Source of the DNA: Prochlorococcus sp. AG-418-I20
GTDB lineage: Bacteria; Cyanobacteriota; Cyanobacteriia; PCC-6307; Cyanobiaceae
DNA: 55,894 bases
Direction: 5' to 3'
NCBI GenBank assembly: GCA_003214175.1
Contig: QCLZ01000008.1
Coordinates: 1 to 55,894 of the forward strand
Shown here: piece after piece, positions 6,710-51,567 of the stretch
How the letters are laid out: every line of letters begins with the position of its first letter
Position numbering within the stretch: the first letter of the stretch is position 1
Position numbers and translations under genes: made by a program
Notes under the pieces: generated by a model
Database searches by the model: none
Seen by the model: the letters and a program-made list of their open reading frames with translations, nothing else
Told to the model about the DNA's origin: nothing

Positions 6710-6748
6710 AAACCTCTCCAGAAATTCCAACTACCAGAGAGGTTTTTA
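6710..6748. terminator. Strong hairpin, terminator or end of a small RNA
   Basis: A 9-bp perfect stem (AAACCTCTC with GAGAGGTTT) encloses an 18-base loop and is followed by a T run on the plus strand and a broken T tract on the minus strand. It sits upstream of the minus-strand DUF1651 gene, and no plus-strand gene ends here, so it may terminate an unannotated transcript from either side. Confidence 0.5.
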
Positions 6749-6931
6749 GGTCGATTCGTACTATATAAAATCAACCTATGTCTTGCAGTAAACGTAGAGT
6801 ATACTGATGAGGTTTGGCCTCAATTAATTTATAGCAAAAATTTTAACTCTTACAAAGTAGTGCATGAAGCAACGGATTAATTTATGACTTACTATTGTCT
6901 TCTAAAAATATTTTCTTAAAATCTATATCCA
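6749..6931. other. Intergenic, possible small RNA
   Basis: No gene is seen. A small hairpin (TGAGG, loop TTTGG, CCTCA) lies near 6809-6823. Together with the strong hairpin at 6710-6748 it is compatible with a minus-strand noncoding transcript, but there is no promoter I can name. Confidence 0.25.
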
Positions 6932-14435: not shown

Positions 14436-14459
14436 AAAAAAAAAGACTCTTGCGAGCCT
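14436..14459 (-). terminator. Intrinsic terminator in the DUF3303 leader
   Basis: On the minus strand it reads AGGCTC, loop GCAA, GAGTCT followed by nine T in all. This is a six-base-pair stem (one G-T pair) capped by a GNRA tetraloop, a textbook terminator. No gene ends here on the minus strand; the next downstream gene is DUF3303. Confidence 0.8.
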
Positions 14460-14600
14460 AGGTGATGGGGACTCCTATAATGACAAATTAAATAGAAACT
14501 AACAACCCCATCAATAGGTTATTTAAATTGCTTACAAACACCATATGTGGTGCTAAAATTTTAGTAAGGCTGGGTGATGGGGATTATCCTGCTTTTACCA
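14436..14600 (-). ncRNA. Candidate attenuator/riboswitch or small RNA
   Basis: In transcription order the minus strand carries segment 1 CCCCATCA (14582-14575), segment 2 TGATGGGG (14513-14506), segment 3 CCCCATCA (14470-14463) and then the terminator. Segment 2 can pair perfectly with segment 1 or with segment 3, not both. Pairing with segment 3 extends through CCTA and TAGG and takes bases of the terminator 5' arm, so it would act as antiterminator; pairing with segment 1 would free the terminator. A small hairpin (CACCA, TATG, TGGTG on the plus strand, 14539-14552) sits between segments 1 and 2. Segments 1 and 3 lie in two similar modules, AGGA-x-TCCCCATCACC. A stand-alone small RNA is the alternative. 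Confidence 0.6.
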
Positions 14601-14688
14601 AGACGAAGCTATAGTTTTTTTTATTTATTTTAAAATGCAACTTAATAAATGAAATTTCTTTTAAGTTATAAGTATTTAAGACTTTTAG

Positions 14689-14814
14689 AAATATTTCAAA
14701 GCCCTAGCTATATCTATTAATGCAGTTAAGATTTCTTATGTTTCTTTAGGAGATCAAGTAAGTAACTTACAAAAAGCTAAAGGGTTTAAAGACTATCGAA
14801 GCGAAAAAGAGTAA
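14689..14814 (+). pseudogene. Gene fragment without a start codon
   Basis: An open frame after a TAG reads KYFKALAISINAVKISYVSL and then GDQVSNLQKAKGFKDYRSEK before TAA. The composition is protein-like but no ATG, GTG or TTG is available. It overlaps the promoter side of the DUF3303 leader on the other strand. Confidence 0.35.
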
Positions 14815-50201: not shown

Positions 50202-51567
50202 TAACTTATTAAGAGCTCCAAACCAAAGTATTGAGGAGACTGGCTATGCCTGGTATGTAGGTAACGCTAGACTAATCAATTTATCTGGTCGTTTATTAGG
50301 AGCTCACATTGCTCACTCTGGACTCATAGTCTTTTGGGCTGGAGCAATGATGCTCTTTGAGGTTAATCATTTTACTTTTGATAAACCAATGTGGGAGCAA
50401 GGTCTAATCTGTATGCCTCACGTCGCAATGTTTGGCTATGGAATAGGTCCTGGTGGTGAGGTTACTGATATCATGCCTTTCTTCCAAGCAGGTGTGGTTC
50501 ACTTAATTGCCTCAGCTGTGCTTGGTTTCGGTGGTATTTACCATTCACTAGCAGGCCCAGAAAAACTTGAAGAAGATTTCCCATTTTTCTCTACTGATTG
50601 GAGAGATAAGAATCAAATGACAAATATCCTTGGATATCATTTGATTGTTCTAGGTGTAGGTGCATTAGCATGGTCAGTTAACTGGTGTTTTATTGGCGGT
50701 GCATATGATACTTGGGCTCCTGGTGGTGGCGAAGTTAGACTTGTTAATCCAACTTTGGATCCAAGAGTGATTCTTGGATATCTATTTAGATCTCCATGGG
50801 GAGGTGCTGGTTCAATTATCGGTGTTAACTCCATTGAAGACATTGTTGGTGGACACGTCTATGTAGGTATAACTGCAATTATTGGAGGAATATTCCACAT
50901 CTTTACCAAACCTTTTGGATGGGCAAGAAGAGCATTCATCTGGAATGGTGAAGGACTATTAAGTTATGCTCTTGGCGGAATTTGTGTGGCAAGTTTTATT
51001 GCTTCAACTTTCATTTGGTTCAATAATACTGCTTATCCATCAGAGTTTTATGGTCCAACAAATGCCGAAGCTTCACAAGCCCAAAGCTTTACTTTCCTTG
51101 TGAGAGATCAAAGAATTGGAGCTAATGTAGGTTCAACAATGGGACCAACGGGTCTTGGTAAGTATCTCATGAGATCTCCTACAGGTGAAATTATATTTGG
51201 TGGTGAAACAATGAGATTTTGGGATTTCAGAGGTCCATGGTTAGAGCCTTTAAGAGGACCTAACGGATTGAGCCTTGAGAAAATTCAAAATGATATTCAG
51301 CCTTGGCAAGTAAGAAGAGCTGCTGAATATATGACTCATGCTCCTAACGCTTCTATTAACTCAGTTGGGGGAATCATTACAGAGCCTAATGCTGTTAACT
51401 TTGTTAACTTAAGACAATGGTTAGCTGCAGCTCAATTCTTCCTAGGATGGTTTACATTCATCGGTCATCTTTGGCATGCAGGACGTGCTAGAGCGGCTGC
51501 TGCAGGTTTCGAAAAAGGAATCGACAGAAAGAGTGAACCAGCTCTAGAAATGCCTGATTTAGATTAA
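50185..51567 (+). CDS. psbC: Photosystem II CP43 protein, GTG start
   Basis: The 460-residue inner antenna protein starts at GTG ([20 protein letters not shown]), with GAGGAGG 10 bases upstream inside psbD. This is the classical psbD/psbC overlap. It carries six spans, many His ligands for chlorophyll and the [20 protein letters not shown] loop whose Glu and Arg contact the Mn cluster. A strong terminator follows. Confidence 0.98.

Follow-up and report, generated by a model that had tools for sequence, protein, structure and literature searches.

A short intergenic segment of the window (the whole stretch of 55,894 nucleotides that was analysed) is probably not a switch of the neighbouring gene; it looks like a copy of a repeated element from which a very short RNA and, back to back with it, a decoy RNA would be made. 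On the strength of conservation and complementarity, we lean towards a family of divergent pairs of predicted sRNAs, in which RNA-B would repress translation of the sigma factor gene rpoD4 and RNA-C would act as the decoy. RNA-B would be a minimal sRNA formed by a single-stranded 5' UCCCCAUCACC seed and a terminator hairpin. Its 5' end would pair over the rpoD4 start codon, partly on the Shine-Dalgarno side, most likely repressing rather than activating translation. RNA-C would run in the opposite direction from a shared control region and expose GGGUGAUGGGGAU in a hairpin loop; since these are the same letters as those of the rpoD4 start, RNA-C could titrate RNA-B as a decoy and so relieve the repression of rpoD4.

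The element was widespread. A DNA search of the genus gave matches in 235 of 266 genomes at E <= 0.01. Covariance model R1, at E <= 0.01, detected it in 154 of 400 genomes of the window's family, taken to be Cyanobiaceae, and model R2, which covers the 3' half and was built from 37 sequences, in 135 of 271 genomes (>= 90% complete) at E <= 0.001, belonging to 15 of 34 genera; both covariance searches were run with stricter filters. R2 gave up to 10 matches in a single genome (G316:C1, 2.0 Mb), where a single 35-kb stretch holds at least four. When one element variant was searched by an exact 24-mer, 10 named contigs matched, all 10 labelled Prochlorococcus. The genome of the window contains a paralogue with 83% identity beside other genes (G000:C3:6635-6788) and a more distant member at C3:156932-157094. 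Copies in MED4 lie at 348812-348969, 936737-936837 and 772353-772456, in a coordinate frame checked by the Rfam match of Yfr10 at 346661-346738, which equals the published coordinates. For comparisons, 46 distinct copies were used, obtained from 50 clustered ones by removing four that were out of register or paired by chance (L002, L096 twice and L141). These copies stem from a subset of loci and do not represent all the genomes searched; since selection required a C-rich pattern and a T-run, the right terminator (46/46) and part of the seed constancy are given by construction. Since the copies, like the rpoD4 orthologues described below, are related to each other, the counts are not independent and overstate independence. 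Among the 30 closest loci, mean variability was 0.004 in the 5' module and RNA-B versus 0.22 in the next 35 nt; it was 0.028 in the left hairpin and linker and 0.054 beyond these on the left, a stretch in which an ORF is present at many loci.

Predicted RNA-B (14436..14470, minus strand, ~35 nt) would carry an unpaired 5' CCCCAUCACCU seed, followed by a terminator hairpin and a U-run. It reads 5'-CCCCAUCACC plus the terminator hairpin, and would reach ~43-45 nt in several copies from other genera; its 5' end (14470) was placed by promoter spacing. The intrinsic terminator (AGGCTC-GCAA-GAGTCT at 14459-14444 plus the T-run; unit 14436..14459, minus) was matched by the terminator tool, with 0.1 expected in shuffles, and its run of nine T (14444-14436, minus) has the first T paired. 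CCCCATCAC was kept in 42 of the 46 distinct copies, partly by construction because of the C-rich pattern used in selection. The seed columns were invariant or nearly so in 37 aligned copies and the seed was free in the predicted fold, while in 6 of the 37 sequences one pair of the terminator stem showed a two-sided change, U-A replacing C-G. Computationally, RNA-B combines the conserved unstructured seed and the Rho-independent terminator of a trans-acting base-pairing sRNA. A putative promoter, P_B (14477..14505, minus), consists of a -35 box TTGTTA (14505-14500), a 17-bp spacer and a -10 box CATTAT (14482-14477). Its hexamers are weak (8/12, below the cut-off of the promoter scan tool) and the start would be a pyrimidine; in 35 of 46 distinct copies the seed is preceded by TTG at a distance of 35 or 36 bp, with spacers of varying sequence. 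Units resembling RNA-B (CCCCATCACCN8-38TTTTTT) occurred in 26 of 30 family genomes outside the genus and the reversed control in 0 of 30, in a count where the seed is fixed by the pattern and a site with a T-run longer than six can be counted more than once. The hairpins between seed and T-run differed among these units.

On the plus strand, predicted RNA-C (14566..14622, ~57 nt) would form a hairpin displaying GGGUGAUGGGGAU, followed by a terminator region that is degenerate in the window copy. It includes GGGTGATGGGGAT (14572..14584, plus), the reverse complement of the 5' C-rich module, which is identical to the 13 nt over the rpoD4 start codon and is the longest stretch identical to the rpoD4 start region of its own genome. 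The putative divergent promoter P_C (14531..14559, plus; CTTACA at 14531-14536, 17 bp, TG-extended TAAAAT at 14554-14559) scored 9/12 in the scan tool, which returned 2 promoter matches in the region versus 1.5 expected in shuffles; by itself P_C was not above chance. Across the 46 copies, a leftward TAnnnT box 20-25 nt from the 5' module gave 49 matches; other offsets gave 0-4, except for the palindrome region at 58-63. Of the 46 distinct copies, 35 have a leftward intrinsic terminator at the left edge and 11 lack it, versus 4 with a rightward one there, and control flanks yielded leftward terminators in 1/46 (left side) and 6/46 (right side). In the window copy this terminator is degenerate and was not detected. 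The decoy site, promoter-like box and terminator of predicted RNA-C were conserved in most copies. The predicted RNA-B/RNA-C duplex was better than the shuffle mean in 10 of 11 copies (L117 fell below it) and beat all 200 shuffles in one of 11, the window copy. Beyond the left edge no similarity was seen by eye among paralogues; three Synechococcus-like orthologues share more. The TTG spacing, the leftward TAnnnT boxes, the leftward terminators and this lack of similarity point to two divergent units, RNA-B (14470-14436, minus) and RNA-C (~14566-14622, plus), with ends and expression as predicted from sequence. A DUF1651-like ORF (match below the Pfam cut-off) that follows the leftward terminator in many relatives is not open in the window (14598-14760, plus).

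The same letters could instead encode one longer rightward sRNA, ~150 nt in the window's genus and 200 nt or more elsewhere, with two C-rich seeds against rpoD4 and no leftward RNA, the left hairpin being an upstream terminator or a 5' hairpin. We regard this as unlikely, yet deserving of weight. The two modules have the same orientation and share an identical 9-mer in 37 of 46 copies, at distances of 103 to 175 nt (111-113 in 11 of 12 copies of the window's genus), and full-length covariance matches extend across genera. The 5'-module stem, which flanks the displayed loop of predicted RNA-C and counts for the divergent reading too, also covaries: 150 Watson-Crick cells were counted versus 127 +/- 5.3 in shuffles, with a maximum of 145 in 1000 shuffles; a strand test on this stem (A-C 48 versus 57.8 expected, G-T 11 versus 19.6) was not decisive. 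However, because the paralogues (by eye) share no upstream sequence beyond the left edge, there is no visible common promoter, the T-run of the left hairpin is on the opposite strand in 35 of 46 copies versus 4, and some RNA-B units (L138 and L143) have no 5' module within the 230 nt inspected. More palindrome-like stretches (e.g. CCAGATCTGG) were seen right after the terminators of L132, L135, L138 and L143.

The proposed target emerged from the distribution of the seed. The window's own genome has eight CCCCATCAC sites: four in family copies, three inside ORFs and one covering, in antisense, the start codon of a gene whose 338-aa product is a sigma-70 family protein with Pfam regions 1.2, 2, 3 and 4. 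This sigma gene, with GGGUGAUGGGGAU over its start codon, is the group 2 sigma factor gene rpoD4, PMM1697 in MED4, where it lies at 1632707 (G033:C1; L184) and contains both published PMM1697/rpoD4 primers. The ATG used was kept because an in-frame stop occurs 12 codons upstream in MED4 and 5 codons upstream in three other genomes. Published PMM1697 primer positions are 60 higher than those counted from this ATG, and the annotated start may need checking. In an alignment of 30 orthologues from 14 genera of the window's family (the start of L203 re-anchored to its motif), 28 of the 35 positions from -14 to +21 were identical in 30/30 and the others in 25 or more, with 17 consecutive invariant positions from -7 to +10. 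Codons 2, 3, 5 and 7, which encode conserved residues, were the same codon in 30/30 orthologues; among later codons the mean commonest-codon fraction was 0.57 over 218 columns, one of which reached 0.96. Of 44 genomes of the window's family, 36 contain the 17-mer CAGGGTGATGGGGATCC, each a single time (reversed control, 0); it also occurred in one of 246 other genomes of the class, there not recognisably in a sigma gene.

Target motif and RNA-B unit did not always occur together. Four g6 genomes without CAGGGTGATGGGGATCC still have GTGATGGGG at the sigma start. In g45, GTGATGGG is gone from the sigma start in 3/3 genomes (one reads GGGTGTGGGG), and the RNA-B-like unit is still kept; the g10 genome has neither. 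By the strict unit pattern, 3 of 22 genomes with CAGGGTGATGGGGATCC lack an RNA-B unit, one of which (G268) has an R2 match; two g34 genomes have the target motif and no unit by this pattern.

The complementarity of window RNA-B to its own rpoD4 comprises 11 Watson-Crick pairs plus a G-U, which together make 12 continuous pairs, and, after one mismatch, four further pairs on the Shine-Dalgarno side. The full 13-nt match to rpoD4 belongs to the 5' module and to several low-light copies with AUCCCCAUCACCC, not to window RNA-B. The predicted energy of the window pair was -31.2 kcal/mol versus -16.0 +/- 3.2 for 500 shuffled targets (best -30.7), and RNA-B against 34 ORF starts of the window gave a mean of -12.0 and a best value of -19.7 kcal/mol. 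In MED4 the pair reached -31.9 versus -28.2 for the best shuffle. All 500 shuffled targets were beaten in two of five pairs, those of the window and MED4, and not in the pairs of the own paralogue and of the genomes that we take to be SS120 and MIT9313; the SS120 optimum was not a plain seed duplex. Conserved complementarity to the start region of a target, as expected of a trans-acting sRNA, was found at rpoD4. The same pairing might have the opposite sign, with RNA-B opening the hairpin at the rpoD4 start and thereby activating or stabilising the mRNA, since this start lies within a predicted hairpin in all four genomes folded. We consider activation improbable: the start codon lies within the duplex, which extends to the Shine-Dalgarno side, a position at which a duplex normally blocks ribosomes. 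The frozen rpoD4 start could, in part, reflect its own predicted hairpin.

Between the two predicted units lies the palindrome GCACCACATATGGTGT (minus-strand letters; 14538..14553, unstranded; pattern RCACYAN4TRGTGY), a possible operator. In the window's genome the pattern has only two sites, the window element and its paralogue; in MED4, two of four sites fall in the element family and the other two inside ORFs. The palindrome resembles the NrdR box. An nrd operator was not supported in either genome, because the only sites outside the family are the two inside MED4 ORFs. A reading of the whole element at the DNA level, with palindromes and C-rich repeats as transcription-factor sites or mobile-repeat remnants and no functional RNAs, would account for the near confinement of the palindrome to the family in these two genomes, the varied contexts and the up to 10 matches per genome. 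It seems very improbable to us, given that terminator stem pairs covary, that both edges carry outward terminators, at the right edge partly as a result of how copies were selected, and that the element exactly matches a constrained mRNA start.

The sequence-only reading had proposed an attenuator or riboswitch for the DUF3303 gene (PF11746; 13992..14303, minus; Pfam E 1e-20), which is co-directional with the element here. Its structural description was accurate: on the minus strand, outer segment 1 CCCCATCA (14582-14575), middle segment TGATGGGG (14513-14506, adjoining the -35 box and with only GGGG widely kept) and outer segment 3 CCCCATCA (14470-14463) occur in order, followed by the GCAA-capped terminator with nine T. 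The two similar modules also stood out, AGGA-N0..12-CCCCATCACC occurring twice in the window versus 0.00 expected, and CCCCATCA occurs five times versus 0.88 expected (0/100 shuffles reach 5), two of these copies lying outside the element (6611 and 10123). The middle segment can indeed pair with either outer one (1-2, -31.1; 2-3, -30.8 kcal/mol), but this is a local property: TGATGGGG was found in 3/46 distinct copies and GGGG in 38/46. The regulatory roles given to these pairings did not hold. The 2-3 fold, supposed to take terminator bases, keeps the whole terminator stem, and the 1-2 pairing does not release the terminator, which stands in the free, 1-2 and 2-3 folds alike with a mean pairing probability of 0.94. 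A fold extended through CCUA/UAGG that does use terminator bases reaches only -29.7 kcal/mol, so that no real antiterminator is predicted; the CCTA/TAGG bases were kept in 6 of 46 distinct copies. RNAalifold on 17 sequences of the window's genus gave a fold through segments 2 and 3 with two-sided changes in 0 of 23 pairs, and the 191-nt minus strand had a z of -1.14 versus shuffles, 31 of 200 of which fold at least as well. Searches against Rfam gave no match on the element at the gathering score and, in permissive mode, only a plus-strand snoRNA (E 4.2).

What speaks for the attenuator reading is that the 30 best-matching loci encode a DUF3303-like protein downstream and co-directionally; there the element is almost invariant except for the window's own left hairpin. 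When ORFs of at least 60 aa within the fetched stretch were considered for the 46 distinct copies of the wider family, 25 had a co-directional and 17 a convergent next ORF, and for 4 none was found; the proteins look unrelated, and DUF3303 is no constant neighbour. In MED4 the gene that follows the element is convergent with a DUF3303-like ORF (identified by eye). With the terminator present in both folds instead of excluding an antiterminator, with no constant downstream gene, and with contexts, folding and conservation all disagreeing, a cis attenuator or riboswitch of DUF3303 can be set aside. The small-RNA alternative mentioned by the same reading fits well, since the C-rich modules are complementary over 11-13 nt to a constrained sigma-factor start.

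In RNA sponges, a decoy RNA imitates the target site of an sRNA and titrates it; here the decoy is predicted to share a bidirectional control region with its sRNA. A close parallel is Yfr1/Yfr10 and Yfr2 of MED4, in which the motif of an sRNA is counteracted by a nearly complementary sRNA, with yfr10 homologues upstream of yfr2 homologues in high-light strains and several per genome (PMC6778093). The element resembles that system in its predicted, nearly complementary counteracting RNA and its several copies per genome, and differs in that the pair is read as divergent and would target rpoD4. A Yfr2-like identity was rejected: the Rfam matches of Yfr10 (RF02362) and Cyano-1 (RF01701) fall at their own MED4 loci, ~2 kb away from an element copy. 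As a candidate target of Yfr1, PMM1697 proved to be a pseudo target (PMC3142192). Yfr11 and Yfr16 are similar MED4 ncRNAs of 149 and 138 nt with one MIT9515 homologue, located at complement(358606..358754) and complement(657392..657529) (PMC2518516); they were excluded, since these coordinates coincide with no element copy found, nor do the MED4 copies coincide with any of the 14 ncRNAs (Yfr8-Yfr21) in Table 1 of that paper. Yfr103, an ncRNA that marine picocyanobacteria carry in several paralogues and that has a palindrome upstream, measures 290-328 nt and has seven paralogues in Synechococcus CC9605, and the available part of its source names homologues for low-light Prochlorococcus and Synechococcus strains only (PMC5069720). 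Compared by description, the element is likewise multi-copy with a palindrome, but its conserved unit is shorter and is present in MED4. In Pseudomonas aeruginosa, the sRNA ReaL translationally silences rpoS, an alternative sigma factor gene; organism and sequence are different, and the accessible part of the source mentions no divergent decoy (PMC6215814). Our literature search, which did not include the primary-transcriptome paper on MED4 and MIT9313, returned no expression or description of RNA-B or RNA-C.

One complete element, with both modules and both terminators, was found at L216:10480-10731 in a virus-labelled 12.7-kb contig (IMGVR_UViG_3300006565_001309); the 7 other viral loci fetched had no R2 match. 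Its proteins match phage families (pstS-like, plastoquinol terminal oxidase), and Pfam also identified a heme oxygenase and an ammonium transporter. Named phage records gave no match to the L216 element and only two 31-nt matches (E 0.5) to the window element. With the entire cassette present on a contig that is labelled viral and has cyanophage-type genes, phages may use it to tune the sigma factor of their host; this copy may also be host contamination.

Besides its mere five sigma factors, MED4 has few regulators, and PMM1697 (rpoD4) shows a daily cycle (PMC2663038); its level was lower under UV at one time point, not significantly so after correction (PMC2921402). It is conceivable, at somewhat less than even chances in our estimation, that in marine picocyanobacteria up to 10 divergent sRNA/decoy cassettes, each with a ~10-nt seed and a terminator, set RpoD4 translation and froze ~35 nt of mRNA start across many genera, and that phages use the cassette too. 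If so, a multi-copy start-codon sRNA with a built-in decoy would explain the odd invariant start of the rpoD4 mRNA and would add RNA-level control to the diel programme, and it could be tested by a two-plasmid E. coli assay without Prochlorococcus genetics.

Some further observations were made around the element copies. In L043, L045 and L047 the ATG of an ORF directly follows the T-run of the element; in L043 (MED4) this is an ABM-domain gene (PF03992). A glutamine-II riboswitch lies ~1.5 kb from a MED4 element copy (G033; L153:4947-5009, minus). Within the window itself, Rfam matched IsrR and Yfr13 at 50599-50782 (minus) and 6725-6821 (minus), respectively.
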